Origin: a virus | IMG/VR virus record: IMGVR_UViG_3300012984_000033 | Location: 1 to 25,953 of that record | Reading direction: 5' to 3' (one strand) | Length of the DNA stretch: 25,953 bases | Part shown: in pieces, positions 12,684-25,953 of the stretch | How the letters are laid out: the number at the start of each line of letters is the position of its first letter | Numbering within the stretch: the first letter of the stretch is position 1 | Notes under the pieces: generated by a model | The model's database searches: none | Seen by the model: only the letters and a program-made list of their open reading frames with translations | Told to the model about the DNA's origin: nothing | Position numbers and translations under genes: made by a program

Positions 12684-12796
12684 AGGCCCTCCTACGCAAG
12701 GCCCGGCTGATCCGCGCTTTCCTGCCGAGATGCGCGGCGGTGCTGGTGAAGATGGCCTTTGAGGAAAGAAAGACCCGCCGGATTACGCATCGTTGA
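12641..12796 (+). CDS. Possible small basic protein overlapping the previous gene
   Basis: A 51-residue open frame, overlapping the preceding gene by 43 bases in another frame. It encodes a basic helical peptide (LLRKARLIRAFLPRCAAVL) ending in KTRRITHR. The overlap is larger than elsewhere in this phage. The last codons form part of the terminator stem, which argues it may be chance; a GTG around 12680 could shorten the overlap. Low confidence. Confidence 0.3.
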   Translation: MASRETAEERLGEVKALLRKARLIRAFLPRCAAVLVKMAFEERKTRRITHR

Positions 12797-12813
12797 GAGG
12801 CGCGGCGGGTTTG
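12774..12813. terminator. Bidirectional terminator between late genes (+) and tRNA cluster (-)
   Basis: CCCGCCG (12774-12780) pairs with CGGCGGG (12803-12809) around a 22-base loop. On the plus strand TTTGCT follows. On the minus strand the stem is followed by TCTTTCTTTCC. It therefore can end both the late transcript and the converging tRNA transcript. The long loop makes it weaker than the other terminators here. Confidence 0.55.
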
Positions 12814-13025: not shown

Positions 13026-13097
13026 ATCCACGCCTCAGATTTGAACTGAGAACCCCCCGCTTACAAGGCGGGCGCTCTACCGTTGAGCTAGCGAGGA
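13026..13097 (-). tRNA. tRNA-Thr (anticodon TGT)
   Basis: Full cloverleaf on the minus strand: acceptor TCCTCGC/GCGTGGA with one T-T mismatch, D-arm GCTC..GAGC, anticodon stem CCCGC/GCGGG around CTTGTAA (anticodon TGT), and T-arm CTCAG-TTCAAAT-CTGAG. CCA is not encoded. It is the third tRNA in a minus-strand run with 3 bases to tRNA-Gly. Confidence 0.9.
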
Positions 13098-13100
13098 ATT

Positions 13101-13174
13101 TGGAGCCCCGAGAGAGAATCGAACTCTCGTCATCTGCTTGGAAGGCAGTCATTCTACCATTAAACTACCGAGGC
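13101..13174 (-). tRNA. tRNA-Gly (anticodon TCC)
   Basis: Cloverleaf with acceptor GCCTCGG/TCGGGGC (two G-T pairs), anticodon stem CTGC(C)/GCAG around the TCC anticodon (CTTCCAA loop), T-arm GAGAG-TTCGATT-CTCTC, discriminator T and encoded CCA. It sits one base from tRNA-Met. Confidence 0.92.
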
Positions 13175-13175
13175 T

Positions 13176-13250
13176 TGGTGGCAGGGGCGGGACTCGAACC
13201 CGCGATGCCGGGTTATGAGCCCGGAGTCTTAGCCGCTAGACGACCCTACA
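13176..13250 (-). tRNA. tRNA-Met (CAT) with initiator-like features
   Basis: Cloverleaf with anticodon CAT in loop CTCATAA, T-arm GCGGG-TTCGAGT-CCCGC and encoded CCA. Two initiator hallmarks are visible: the 1-72 position is mismatched (T against C), and the anticodon stem has three G-C pairs next to the loop (GGG/CCC). The D-arm is GTCT..AGAC. Either an initiator-like or an unusual elongator tRNA. Confidence 0.88.
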
Positions 13251-13526: not shown

Positions 13527-14660
13527 ATGGCATCCGTCCGGCAGAAAGTGGGATCACAGTATTGGTGGGCTTGCGTGACCATGCCGAATGGCAAGCGCCG
13601 CCAGTTCTCCACCGGCTTGATTGACCGCGCCGAGGCGATGGAGGTTGCTGTCCGGGCAGAGCGCGAGACGCGGCGACAGAAGGCCGAGGGCAAACTGAGG
13701 GATGCATTTTCACGGCTTCTGAGTGACGTTGTGGGCGCGGCTCCGGTGCCGCCGAAAGAGTGGCTGCTGAAATGGTGGTCGCGCCGGTCTGCTGAAGTCA
13801 AGGCCGCCACCGCGGAGTCCTACCAGATCGCCATTACGGAGGCTGGCAACTTCTTTGAGCGGAGGGGGAGAGGATCGCTGTCAGATGTGACCATCCAAGA
13901 CATTGTCGATCTTCGCGGCGAGTGGGCCGCGGTGAATTCCACGACGACCGCCAACTACAAGATCAAGGTGCTTCGCGGAGCCTTCAAGGAGGCGTGGCAG
14001 GAGCGGGCGGTTACAGAGAACGTGGTCGCGATGGTGCGCCCCGTGAAGGGCAAGAAGGGCGCAAAATCGACCCGCCGGGACTTTCGCGAGGATGAGCTTC
14101 CGAAGATCTTTGCTGTCTGCGACAACCACTGGAGGTGCATGTGCATGCTGGGACTGTTCACCGGAGGACAGCGCTTCGGCGACTTGGCGACCCTTCGCGG
14201 GCGCGATGTGAACATGAAGAAAAGGGAGATCCACACGCAGGCACAGAAGACCGAGCGGCCAATCATTCTTCCCATCGTGCCAGCGCTGGAAGAGGCGCTA
14301 AAGGCCCTTCCGCTGCCAAAAGACCCGGATGCGTATTTGTTCCCCGAGCTGGCCGCATTGACCAAGGGCGGGCGATCCAAGCGCTTTAGCCGCCTGCTCT
14401 ACGAGGCTGGCTTAATCCCCAAGCGGGGGCCGCGGAAGAAGCGGGTGGAAAACCCCAATCCGGGTCGCCGGAAAACCTCCGAGCTTGGCTTCCACAGCTT
14501 CCGGCACACAGCGACCACCATGCTCAAGTCGGCAGGGGTCTCCGATTCGGTCGCCAAGGCCATCGTGGGGCACGACTCTGCCGCGGTCTCGAAGGTCTAC
14601 ACGCACATCCCCATGGACACGATGCGGGCGGCTCTGGAGAAACTGGACATCCCGAAGTAG
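13527..14660 (+). CDS. int: Tyrosine recombinase integrase
   Basis: A 377-residue phage integrase that joins attP to the bacterial attachment site. Layout: N-terminal arm-binding-like segment (1-60), core-binding SAM-like domain (about 75-170), and catalytic domain (about 183-377). Catalytic residues visible: Arg216 (TGGQRFGDLATLR), His323-x-x-Arg326 (HSFRH), His349 (VGHD) and the nucleophile Tyr358 (VYTHI). All are intact, so it should be active. It is next to the attP-like site and convergent with the repressor, with 9 bases between stop codons. Its leader includes one arm-repeat pair, so binding of integrase to its own arm sites could repress it (inference). Confidence 0.93.
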   Translation: MASVRQKVGSQYWWACVTMPNGKRRQFSTGLIDRAEAMEVAVRAERETRRQKAEGKLRDAFSRLLSDVVGAAPVPPKEWLLKWWSRRSAEVKAATAESYQIAITEAGNFFERRGRGSLSDVTIQDIVDLRGEWAAVNSTTTANYKIKVLRGAFKEAWQERAVTENVVAMVRPVKGKKGAKSTRRDFREDELPKIFAVCDNHWRCMCMLGLFTGGQRFGDLATLRGRDVNMKKREIHTQAQKTERPIILPIVPALEEALKALPLPKDPDAYLFPELAALTKGGRSKRFSRLLYEAGLIPKRGPRKKRVENPNPGRRKTSELGFHSFRHTATTMLKSAGVSDSVAKAIVGHDSAAVSKVYTHIPMDTMRAALEKLDIPK

Positions 14661-17376: not shown

Positions 17377-17581
17377 CTACATCGACCGATTCACCGGCAA
17401 GCCAATCGACCGCATACGCCTGCCCAAACTTAACGGCGAGACCTGCGATGAGTGCGGCAGCGAATGCATCGACAACTGCATCATCTGCGGCGCGCCCCAA
17501 TGCTGCCCGGCTTGCTGCGCCGAAGCCTGCGAACCAACCCCGCCAACGCCTGATGCGCCTTCTCCTCCATCGCTGACATGA
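17372..17581 (+). CDS. Cysteine-rich small protein
   Basis: A 69-residue protein with ten cysteines clustered in residues 24-53 (CDECGSEC, CIICGAPQCC, CCAEAC), consistent with two zinc ribbons or a Cys-rich knot. It has a GTG start within the 25-base coupling repeat and a Pro-rich end (TPPTPDAPSPPSLT). The Pro-rich end is encoded in repeat A, shared in another frame with 20381-20418, so the C-terminus is probably recombination-made. Confidence 0.6.
   Translation: MSYIDRFTGKPIDRIRLPKLNGETCDECGSECIDNCIICGAPQCCPACCAEACEPTPPTPDAPSPPSLT
17538..17575 (+). repeat. Repeat A, copy 1 (38 bp)
   Basis: Matches 20381-20418 at 37 of 38 positions. In this copy it encodes the C-terminus of the Cys-rich gene. 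In the other copy it spans the stop of the 20094 gene and the start of the 20396 gene, in a different reading frame. Hence the duplication happened at DNA level. Confidence 0.85.
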
Positions 17582-17793
17582 CCCGCGAATACACAGACGC
17601 CGAGCGCATGGACTGGATCGAGGCCCACTGCTTCGAACTGGTCTGGGATGATACTCGCCCCGGAGTTGTTGAAGCCGGATTCGGTCACACGTTCCACGGC
17701 GACACCCGGCGCGAGGCCATCGATCGCGCGCTTGCTTGCCAGAACATGCCCGAAGCGGACCAGCCCGACGACGATGGAGGATCGCTACTCTAA
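17578..17793 (+). CDS. Unknown small protein with shared PDD(D/E)GGSLL end
   Basis: A 71-residue protein (MTREYTDAERMDWIEAHC..., then GDTRREAIDRAL), with the look of short phage proteins with a DA-R-DW-E helix and strand core. The last nine residues PDDDGGSLL are encoded by repeat B and recur as PDDEGGSLL in the unrelated 20396 gene, so this protein's end was exchanged by recombination. ATGA overlap with the previous stop. Confidence 0.58.
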   Translation: MTREYTDAERMDWIEAHCFELVWDDTRPGVVEAGFGHTFHGDTRREAIDRALACQNMPEADQPDDDGGSLL

Positions 17794-17841
17794 CCGAATA
17801 CACCATGAAGGTATCCGACACCAGCACCTACCTCGAAGCCG
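17767..17841 (+). repeat. Repeat B, copy 1 (75 bp)
   Basis: Matches 20501-20575 at 73 of 75 positions. It covers the end of one gene (GGSLL and stop), a leader TAACCGAATACACC, and the first twelve codons (MKVSDTSTYLEA) of the next gene. Together with repeat A the region 17538-17841 is a diverged duplicate of 20381-20575. Confidence 0.9.
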
Positions 17842-20418: not shown

Positions 20419-20527
20419 GGCGTGTAGCCGCTGCGGCAGCTTCTGGCCGAATAGCGCCTGTTGGTGCTGTCGGGAAGAGGAGCCCGAGCGCGACACGCCA
20501 GACGACGAGGGAGGATCGCTACTCTAA
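20396..20527 (+). CDS. 43-residue zinc-ribbon-like protein
   Basis: Short gene starting at the ATGA overlap. It encodes MRLLLHRWACSRCGSFWP, then CWCC and an acidic end PDDEGGSLL. The CSRC and CWCC pairs would make one zinc ribbon. The start is encoded in repeat A and the end in repeat B, so the gene is framed by both duplicated segments. A related start occurs at 24379 (MKLLCLIAHRW...CLRCG). Confidence 0.5.
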   Translation: MRLLLHRWACSRCGSFWPNSACWCCREEEPERDTPDDEGGSLL

Positions 20528-20575
20528 CCGAATACACCATGAAGGTATCCGACACCAGCACCTACCTTGAAGCCG
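20501..20575 (+). repeat. Repeat B, copy 2 (75 bp)
   Basis: Second copy of 17767-17841 (73/75). Probably the source copy, because the MKVSDTSTYLEA start reads smoothly into the rest of the 20539 protein. Confidence 0.85.
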
Positions 20576-23635: not shown

Positions 23636-24382
23636 GTGCGCTTCTTCGTGGGACTTCACCAACCTTCTGACGCCATGAACTTTGATTCCGCCTTCGTTTC
23701 AGTGAACCGCCTTCGTGGCAGGAAGTCTGACTTCATCGTAGGCGATTGGATCATGGACTCAGGAGCGTTCACGGAGATTGCCACGCATGGCCACTATCGG
23801 GAAAGCGTCGACGGCTACGTGGCCCAAATCGAGCGTTGGAAGAACTGCGGCAATATGCTGGCCGCCGTCTCTCAGGACTACATGTGCGAGCCGTGGATCT
23901 TGGAGAAAACCGGACTGACGATCGCGGACCACCAGCGGCTGACGATTGAGCGATACGACGCTATTCAGGCCAAGACTTCCGTTTTCATCATGCCGGTCCT
24001 ACAGGGCTTCGCTCCCGACGATTACGTGGCTCACATCAGCGCTTACGGTGCCCGACTCAAGTTCGGAATGTGGGTGGGTGTGGGATCTGTCTGCAAGCGC
24101 AATGGCGATCCGAGCGCCATCCTCGCTGTTCTTGGCGCGATCAAGAAAGCTCGCCCAGATCTTCGCCTTCATGGGTTCGGTTTGAAAACGAAAGCCCTCG
24201 CTGATGTTGAGATCCGCGAACTCCTTTACACCGCCGACTCGATGGCGTGGTCATTCGCAGCTCGGAAGCAGGGCCGCAACGCCAACGACTGGAAAGAGGC
24301 GAAGTCATTTGAGGAAAAGATCCTCGGTTTTTCGACAGGGAGAATCTCCCGCCAACTCGTGATGGAATCACTACTCGCATGA
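23636..24382 (+). CDS. dpdA: TGT-like/DpdA-type deazaguanine transglycosylase (probable DNA modification)
   Basis: A 248-residue protein with a tRNA-guanine transglycosylase-like barrel. Motifs in order: DSGAF (41-45; DSGGF in TGT), QDYMCEP (80-86), PVLQGF (120-125; cf. IVQGG), WVGVGSVCK (146-154; cf. GGLAVGE), LHGFGLK (178-184; cf. HYLMGVG) and DSMAWSF (201-207; cf. FDCVLP). Phage DpdA proteins of this class exchange guanine for 7-deazaguanines in DNA and protect it against restriction. No queuosine/preQ0 synthesis genes (FolE, QueC, QueD, QueE) are in the window, so the precursor would come from the host. GTG start. A C5-methyltransferase follows three genes on. Enzyme class is well supported, the DNA (not tRNA) substrate is inferred. 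Confidence 0.75.
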   Translation: MRFFVGLHQPSDAMNFDSAFVSVNRLRGRKSDFIVGDWIMDSGAFTEIATHGHYRESVDGYVAQIERWKNCGNMLAAVSQDYMCEPWILEKTGLTIADHQRLTIERYDAIQAKTSVFIMPVLQGFAPDDYVAHISAYGARLKFGMWVGVGSVCKRNGDPSAILAVLGAIKKARPDLRLHGFGLKTKALADVEIRELLYTADSMAWSFAARKQGRNANDWKEAKSFEEKILGFSTGRISRQLVMESLLA

Positions 24383-24660: not shown

Positions 24661-25344
24661 ATGCGAACACTACATCTATTTGCAGGAGCCGGAGGCGGAA
24701 TCCTCGCCGGAATGCTTCTCGGTCATAACTGCGTTTGCGCAGTCGAAGTCGAACCATACTGCCAAGAAATCTTACTTCAGCGCCAGCGAGATGGCATCCT
24801 TCCTCGCTTCCCGATATGGGGCGATATCCGAACCTTCAACGGACGCCCATGGCGAGGCATCGCCGACATCGTCGCAGGCGGCTACCCATGCCAGGGGTTC
24901 AGTAATGCCGCATCGGGCCGGAACCTTGAGGAAAAGGACATCTCGCACGAATTCGTTAGAGTCGTTTCGGAGGTTCTCCCAGCCCACGTTCTTGGCGAAA
25001 ATGTTTCAAGGGCGGCAGTTGTCCGCGTCTGTGAAGACCTCCGCGACCTTGGTTACGTTTGCCGGTTCGGCAAGGTCTCCGCGAGCATGCTTGGAGCCGA
25101 CCATGACCGCCCTCGATGGTGGCTTCGTGCATACTCCGACCTGCACAGCGAACTTCGCCGCGCCAAGCATGCAGAAGTGGCCGTGCTGCCGAAACTTCGT
25201 GACGGTGTTTGGGAGGCCTTCCCCGACGAACTTCGAATGGCTGATGGGTTGGCCAATCGGATGGACCGACTTAGCGCCGCTGGAAATGGCCAAGTTCCAA
25301 TCGTGGCTGCGACTGCATGGAATCTCCTGAAGCCGACCCAATGA
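24661..25344 (+). CDS. C5-cytosine DNA methyltransferase
   Basis: A 227-residue Dcm-family enzyme. Motif I LFAGAGGG (6-13) binds S-adenosylmethionine; motif IV GGYPCQGFS (73-81) carries catalytic Cys77; motif VI GENV (112-115); motif VIII DRPRWW (149-154); motif X GNGQVP (208-213). All catalytic motifs are intact. The target-recognition region (about 160-200) is short, giving a small enzyme against the usual 300-plus. No cognate restriction enzyme is adjacent, so it is an orphan phage methyltransferase, probably protecting DNA from host restriction. Specificity is not readable from sequence. Confidence 0.9.
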   Translation: MRTLHLFAGAGGGILAGMLLGHNCVCAVEVEPYCQEILLQRQRDGILPRFPIWGDIRTFNGRPWRGIADIVAGGYPCQGFSNAASGRNLEEKDISHEFVRVVSEVLPAHVLGENVSRAAVVRVCEDLRDLGYVCRFGKVSASMLGADHDRPRWWLRAYSDLHSELRRAKHAEVAVLPKLRDGVWEAFPDELRMADGLANRMDRLSAAGNGQVPIVAATAWNLLKPTQ

Positions 25345-25508
25345 ACCCTCTCCATGAAAGCCTCCGTTCCTACGTAAAATCCGCATATCTAGCGGCTGTC
25401 ACAAACACGGAAAAAAGTTGGTCACACACCATTGCTATATCTCGCCAAAAATCCGATATTCCCGGTGTTGCGAAAGCAGCCGGGCGTGAGACCCCGAAGG
25501 AGCCGTAA
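25341..25508 (+). CDS. 55-residue leader-like open frame
   Basis: Starts at ATGA on the methyltransferase stop. Sequence MNPLHESLRSYVKSAYLAAV, then a Lys/Ser-rich part and GRETPKEP. Its last seven codons cover the 5' arm (25487-25499) of an RNA that can pair with the downstream terminator. It may be a real small protein or a leader peptide whose translation sets that RNA's fold. DNA here is more AT-rich than the flanks. Confidence 0.45.
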   Translation: MNPLHESLRSYVKSAYLAAVTNTEKSWSHTIAISRQKSDIPGVAKAAGRETPKEP

Positions 25509-25613
25509 AAGGCCCCATTTACCGATGTTTACTGACCAAACAGCCTCCGAACTTGTTCCCAGCCGTGCCGGTAAAGCGCGGGTCTCAACTGGGGACAGCT
25601 TCGGGGGTTTTTT
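25487..25613 (+). ncRNA. Structured leader RNA with competing pairings (attenuator candidate)
   Basis: TGAGACCC (25487-25494) is perfectly complementary to GGGTCTCA (25580-25587), and CCCCGAAG (25492-25499) to CTTCGGGG (25599-25606). Both targets lie inside the 3' hairpin described separately, so forming either long-range pair would disrupt the terminator. Two small hairpins are also present: GTAAA/TTTAC (about 25505-25521) and TGTTT/AAACA (about 25526-25542). The arrangement is that of a terminator/antiterminator switch before the late genes. Confidence 0.5.
25544..25613 (+). terminator. Very long terminator hairpin before the HNH/terminase block
   Basis: CCTCCGAA (25544-25551) pairs with TTCGGGGG (25600-25607). 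After one C-C mismatch, TTGTTCCCAG (25553-25562) pairs with CTGGGGACAG (25589-25598), and an inner stem CCGTGC/GCGCGG (25563-25568 with 25576-25581) caps it. TTTTTT (25608-25613) follows at once. At about 18 bp plus the cap, it is far longer than the other terminators here. Confidence 0.78.
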
Positions 25614-25624
25614 GTGCCCGTCCC

Positions 25625-25953
25625 ATGGCTAAAACCCGAAAGCCGAAGTTGTCAGATTACCAGAAGAAGCTTCAAGACCCGAGATGGCAGAAGCGGAGGC
25701 TGGAGATATTGGAATCGGCAGAGTGGAAATGCCAGTGGTGCGGAAATACGCGGAGAACCCTCCACGTGCATCACGGCTACTATCGGCGGGCCGCAGATCC
25801 ATGGGATTACGCCGATGAATACTTCCACGTTCTTTGCGACCCTTGCCACGGTAAGGCCGAGTTTGAACGCGCCGACCTCTACCGAGTGATAGGCATGGTC
25901 CCGCCGTCATGCATGGCTGGACTGCACGAAATGACAGTGAGCTTCGCGGCGGG
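25625..25953 (+). CDS. HNH endonuclease next to terminase genes (3' end outside window)
   Basis: Open frame of 109 codons running off the window end. Sequence: PRWQKRRLEILESAEWKCQW (19-38), then CQWCG (Cys36, Cys39), LHVHHGYYRRAADPWDYADE (46-65, the HxHH/HVHH motif with DPWDY) and LCDPCHGKAE (70-79; Cys71, Cys74). This is a common HNH type (DPRW-x-KR.R.IL..., HVHH, DPWDY). In phages with cos-type packaging an HNH protein often lies just before terminase and nicks the ends; this matches the terminase at the window start if the map is circular. The ATG is 12 bases past the long terminator tail. Confidence 0.83.
   Translation, partial: MAKTRKPKLSDYQKKLQDPRWQKRRLEILESAEWKCQWCGNTRRTLHVHHGYYRRAADPWDYADEYFHVLCDPCHGKAEFERADLYRVIGMVPPSCMAGLHEMTVSFAA

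Follow-up and report, generated by a model that had tools for sequence, protein, structure and literature searches.

A conserved, covarying RNA before phage replication genes resembles an attenuator with a docked terminator

The RNA encoded directly upstream of an HNH endonuclease gene in an uncultured phage appears to be a built-in switch, so far undescribed, over whether the viral DNA is replicated. The source is the IMG/VR record IMGVR_UViG_3300012984_000033, and the window analysed here is this whole stretch of 25,953 bases (positions 1 to 25,953). The conserved RNA itself is well supported: its covarying architecture, its place before replication genes and a fixed promoter in one subgroup of relatives are established parts, and we infer the switching mechanism. 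We give a probability of roughly 0.55 to the reading that the element acts in cis, as the 5' leader of the phage replication operon, and works as a pyrL-like attenuator locked by kissing loops. The initial annotation had suggested a possible attenuator at this site, and the general idea of an attenuator-like RNA switch is strengthened by the conserved, covarying RNA and by the terminator lying directly before the downstream start codon. The features concerned are the following:

25432 to 25460, plus strand: weak promoter candidate TTGCTA-17-GATATT (8 of 12 consensus positions; P about 0.20 by shuffling)
25481 to 25496, plus strand: first stem-loop (SL1), stem CGGG/CCCG with an 8-nt loop CGTGAGAC carrying segment A (from the sequence)
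25487 to 25494, plus strand: segment A, TGAGACCC, perfect complement of A'
25518 to 25524, plus strand: segment B, TTTACCG, perfect complement of the whole apical loop, adjoining the ATG at 25525
25525 to 25632, plus strand: leader frame of 35 codons through the terminator, its stop TAA overlapping the HNH start region
25542 to 25609, plus strand: terminator hairpin (RNA folding, about -38.5 kcal/mol)
25542-25551/25600-25609 and 25553-25562/25589-25598, plus strand: basal stems of the hairpin (RNA folding)
25563-25568/25576-25581, plus strand: inner stem of the hairpin (RNA folding)
25569 to 25575, plus strand: apical loop B', CGGTAAA, exactly the unpaired loop of the predicted fold, pairing with B
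25580 to 25587, plus strand: A', GGGTCTCA, pairing with A, at a bulge position common to the relatives
25582 to 25588, plus strand: 7-nt 3' bulge of the predicted fold, holding most of A'
25608 to 25613, plus strand: U-tract (T6) of the intrinsic terminator (sequence; a site in the terminator scan)
25625 to 25951, plus strand: HNH endonuclease gene (PHROG HNH families), cut by the end of the record

The hairpin and its T6, which sits 11-12 nt upstream of the HNH ATG at 25625, lie where they had been annotated, but the hairpin is longer and more elaborate than the simple stem described there. Both pairs of complementary segments reported upstream were also recovered at their positions; TGAGACCC and GGGTCTCA occur once each in the window, and CCCCGAAG starts at 25492 and CTTCGGGG at 25599. 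Only the first pairing, TGAGACCC:GGGTCTCA, recurs in diverse phages with compensating changes, whereas CCCCGAAG:CTTCGGGG was absent from the relatives inspected. The two had been thought to form mutually exclusive structures. The exclusive pairing is CCCCGAAG:CTTCGGGG; a fold in which it is forced reaches -61.6 kcal/mol versus -65.4 kcal/mol for the terminator fold, and with this penalty of about 4 kcal/mol and no counterpart in relatives, it was rejected as an antiterminator. The pairing of A with A' is compatible with the terminator, because its target GGGTCTCA lies mainly in the 3' bulge. A second conserved pairing, B:B' (TTTACCG:CGGTAAA), had been missed in the initial annotation, and neither A:A' nor B:B' excludes the terminator since the basal stem stays intact. 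The chance of such matches had been called low, but in the window each is only moderately unusual (P about 0.03 when the upstream sequence is shuffled), and the strong evidence for the pairings comes from relatives and not from the window alone.

Viral and genome contigs were searched for relatives of the HNH protein, which gave 266 upstream regions, 151 of them non-redundant in a loose sense, as a few pairs (e.g. L178/L204 and L014/L046) have related members and are only partly independent. Of the 151, 61 have sufficient sequence upstream and a terminator hairpin whose end falls no more than about 45 nt from the HNH start. In 31 of these 61, the 90 nt upstream contain a perfect match of at least 7 nt to an unpaired part of the hairpin, against 4.0 expected and a maximum of 13 in 20,000 permutations, where each upstream region was paired with the hairpin of another locus. 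Matches of at least 7 nt to the 3' bulge (A-type) number 17 (1.6 expected, maximum 8) and those to the apical loop (B-type) 18 (1.24 expected, maximum 7), again over 20,000 permutations. Twelve loci, the window among them, have A before B with at least 6 nt each (0.44 expected, maximum 4). Across the loci, the position of the terminator likewise surpassed its permutation controls. The SL1 stems vary in sequence among relatives, for instance CCCG/CGGG in L014, ACCG/CGGT in L046 and GCCG/CGGC in L186. Three members (L211, L139 and L077) keep the loop pairing with a weak or missing U-tract, and two of these (L211 and L077) also have a coupled leader frame, hinting that translation control may matter apart from termination; T counts from a hairpin scan without a T-run requirement were excluded, as its stems ran too far into the U-tract. 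In Abp95 and Pan5, the cultured phages with the nearest HNH, the region directly before HNH has neither such a hairpin nor such a pairing. A blastn search of the window against phages gave no match, a DNA pattern of the window element gave five matches in viral contigs, all in unrelated sequence without the hairpin, and the covariance model R1 had no match in 397 genomes of one bacterial family.

Compensating changes were looked for in the relatives, as the initial annotation had advised, and two subgroups show them. We call these 'Bacteroidetes-type' and 'proteobacterial-type', labels that reflect promoter style and base composition and do not name hosts. In the Bacteroidetes-type, where the loop of SL1 forms a kissing helix with the apical loop, 98.5% of the cells over 26 pairs form standard pairs (13 RNAs, covariation having been counted on the first 8 and then on all 13), and 16 of the 26 pairs have changed on both sides. 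The 7-bp kissing helix alone is paired in 100% of cells with five of seven pairs compensated, while a slid control with the partners shifted by 1-3 columns drops to 33-47%. Among the five proteobacterial-type RNAs with both pairings, 90% of the cells over 42 pairs form standard pairs, and compensation is found in three of seven pairs of the A helix and six of seven of the B helix. In a MAFFT alignment of the window's mixed subgroup SL1 was misplaced, and it was left out of the counts.

The genes that follow this RNA are replication genes. The initial annotation had expected a terminase and late genes downstream, but in relatives HNH is followed by a gene for a replication initiator (PHROG replication initiation or O-like families, DUF1376, Lin1244_N, HTH_36), with DnaB behind it in many loci, and at times an HNH or GIY-YIG endonuclease comes first; the late-gene context was accordingly rejected. 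In the window the HNH frame runs for 109 residues until the record ends and matches only HNH PHROGs. No terminase is visible in its 25,953 bases because the record ends inside the HNH gene, and for the same reason we infer the replication genes behind it from relatives. When the Bacteroidetes-type RNA itself served as the search pattern, 54 contigs were recovered. HNH is the next gene in about 20 of them; elsewhere the first gene encodes a replication initiator, a GIY-YIG protein or an uncharacterised protein, and the first genes, or those behind the endonuclease, match replication initiators and DnaB. Whichever gene follows, the next start codon stands at a near-constant distance. The same RNA thus precedes non-HNH genes and has its own promoter in the Bacteroidetes-type, so that we read it as the leader of a replication operon, neither an HNH companion nor a late-gene element. 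A role as partner of HNH was dismissed, as were a HEARO or IscB omega RNA (the RNA also stands before non-HNH genes and has no HEARO Rfam match) and a phi29-type packaging RNA (its neighbours are replication genes, with no link to a packaging motor). The neighbouring HNH gene is better read as placed between the switch and the replication genes. A GIY-YIG-like gene takes its position right after the same RNA in L299 (1749-2102, minus strand) and also in L305, L306 and L314; the site before the replication genes therefore seems to collect endonuclease genes.

In the Bacteroidetes-type, all 25 distinct sequences have the promoter box TAnnTTTG at a distance of exactly 17 nt ahead of the fixed loop sequence (2.7% expected), and transcripts should therefore begin at SL1, leaving no upstream frame on them. 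Promoters of the sigma70 kind in the window's subgroup come out only slightly above shuffled sequence (7.9 versus 7.0), a scan of the window found none on the opposite strand, and the window's own promoter candidate is unconvincing. The 55-codon frame (25341-25505, stop at 25506-25508), to which a sensor function had been ascribed, has no detectable relatives, and Bacteroidetes-type transcripts appear to carry no upstream frame at all; we rejected it in this role for lack of relatives.

The likely translated element is instead the frame 25525-25632, which, as in pyrBI, crosses the terminator and ends where the next gene starts. In all 13 inspected loci with both pairings, an ATG overlaps segment B or lies at most 2 nt from it (2.1 expected by shuffling), and most of these frames cross the hairpin and end at the beginning of the next gene, often as ATGA or with the stop 2-4 nt before it. 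Moreover, 36 strong hairpins among the relatives have an upstream ATG, and a frame runs through 27 of these hairpins. Frame openness is the weaker evidence here (75% versus 53% of frames without an ATG), as open frames are common in GC-rich hairpins. No good Shine-Dalgarno sequence was found before the leader ATG of the window, nor in most loci inspected, and the leader peptides are not clearly conserved. Bacteroidetes-type RNAs are generally without a leader frame, and translation therefore cannot be the universal trigger.

The most economical reading of these data is an attenuator locked by docking. SL1, in the window's subgroup together with the second upstream segment, would dock onto the 3' bulge and the apical loop of the terminator hairpin and hold the terminator folded in an off state, and docking of B on B' would also hide the start site of the short leader frame. 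Ribosomes that translate this frame through the hairpin would keep the terminator from forming, so that transcription continues and they reach the start of the next gene (HNH, then the replication initiator). In the pyrL leader of E. coli, ribosomes are known to keep intrinsic termination from occurring (PMC5021804). Candidate triggers are translation capacity, a phage protein or an RNA in trans; the Bacteroidetes-type RNAs, having no leader frame, would have to use another trigger than translation. Tentatively, the elements may form an undescribed class of phage RNA switches, in which kissing loops lock a terminator, one lineage hides the start of a leader that must be translated, entry into replication is governed and the loops may act in trans. 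If the last point is true, it would account for loop sequences that diversify with their pairing kept, and loops acting between genome copies could give gene-dosage feedback or exclusion of related phages.

Several other readings account for part of these observations. It is doubtful that the RNA is a stand-alone phage small RNA of about 90-150 nt, self-terminated, with loops acting in trans and the next gene merely close by. The fixed promoter of the Bacteroidetes-type and the compact, independently folded and terminated unit followed by different genes would suit such an RNA, but its place is always immediately ahead of the gene that opens the replication block, at a near-constant distance from the start codon, and a leader ATG at B with a frame coupled to the next gene is not expected of an RNA acting in trans. 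More doubtful still is a leader like lambda pR'-tR' or tR1, whose terminator would be overcome by a Q- or N-type phage protein with the RNA as loading site or terminator part. In lambda the terminator tR1 lies upstream of cII-O-P, and the order promoter, leader, terminator and operon is likewise found in the Bacteroidetes-type; however, a protein site should conserve its sequence, while here the pairing is kept as the sequence changes, and no antitermination protein was recognised among the scanned proteins of the window, whose record is incomplete. We consider it very unlikely that terminated leader copies pair with nascent leaders of other genomes and force termination there, as in P4 immunity or plasmid copy control: complementary loops of one RNA can also pair between molecules, and the pairing sequences do diversify with complementarity kept, but pairing in cis explains the same covariation. 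An ordinary intrinsic terminator with chance complementarities, which the P values of about 0.03 in the window alone might allow, is hardly credible in view of the permutation and covariation results in relatives.

Some other features of the window deserve mention. Upstream of the switch, a DpdA-like or queuine tRNA-ribosyltransferase-like gene (23636-24382; Pfam DpdA, 8.8e-40) lies beside a cytosine methyltransferase gene (24661-25344), and the two are likely involved in DNA modification. A 94-nt direct repeat with 90% identity (17748-17841 and 20482-20575) spans the starts of two different genes, both of which begin MKVSDTSTYLEA, and a 38-nt repeat is found at 17538 and 20381; perhaps these repeats are a common start cassette for regulation or recombination. 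A row of three tRNA genes (13026-13250, minus strand) stands beside an Rfam abiF RNA motif (12773-12809, minus strand; 48.4 bits, above threshold) and an integrase gene (13527-14660), and no AbiF-like protein was found in the scanned frames neighbouring the motif. In C. difficile, AbiF RNA acts as an RNA antitoxin (PMC12373285), and the orphan phage copy could therefore be a counter-defence decoy.

The initial annotation recognised no known RNA family, and this agrees with our survey, as no family of Rfam 15 reaches its gathering score at this site. Among 20 relatives searched, only L020 has an Rfam match, int-alpA RNA (RF02996, 47.3 bits) at 1886-1954 over the terminator hairpin before HNH, and int-alpA may overlap in kind with such hairpins. 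A literature search with limited coverage of subscription journals found no description of the element. For tailed phages, the timing of replication genes has been worked out in few models and is mostly attributed to proteins; an RNA-only control element with a testable structure, common to very different uncultured phages, would add an Rfam class, would mark replication modules in metagenomic phages and would supply natural terminators gated by loop-loop pairing.

In its predicted action the element resembles known attenuators and plasmid pseudoknot leaders, and membership is established in none of the systems compared here. The c4 and c4-a1b1 RNAs of P1/P7/P4 immunity (RF01695, RF03163) also control a phage operon by RNA-RNA pairing, but their match in the window is sub-threshold and at chance level (15.7 bits versus 46.7 required). 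Lambda pR'-tR' and tR1/nutR share with the Bacteroidetes-type RNAs the promoter, short leader and terminator ahead of a phage operon, the window having a weak promoter candidate at this place, but depend on protein antitermination and have no conserved loop-loop docking. The pT181 and pIP501 attenuators place a transcription terminator in the leader of a replication gene, but use an antisense RNA and a competing antiterminator, whereas the conserved pairings here leave the terminator stem intact. In leaders of the IncI-alpha type, the loop of a stem-loop pairs downstream in the leader of a replication initiator with a coupled leader frame; a pseudoknot switch was reportedly described for the IncI-alpha, IncB and IncL-M repY-repZ leaders by Asano and Mizobuchi in 1998, a work cited in PMC10724649. 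The same loop-to-downstream pairing in a replication-operon leader is found here, but in those plasmids the pseudoknot activates translation and an antisense RNA competes with it, while here the target lies inside a transcription terminator. We know of no antisense RNA for the phage leader. The arrangement of pyrL-pyrBI, with a leader frame that spans the terminator and closes near the start of the next gene, is shared by the window, and to our knowledge pyrL has no upstream kissing or pseudoknot segments. In E. coli translation through the hairpin of the intrinsic terminator prevents termination (PMC5021804). The phage element differs in that the start codon stands at the segment complementary to the apical loop, and the operon that it would control is that of phage replication.
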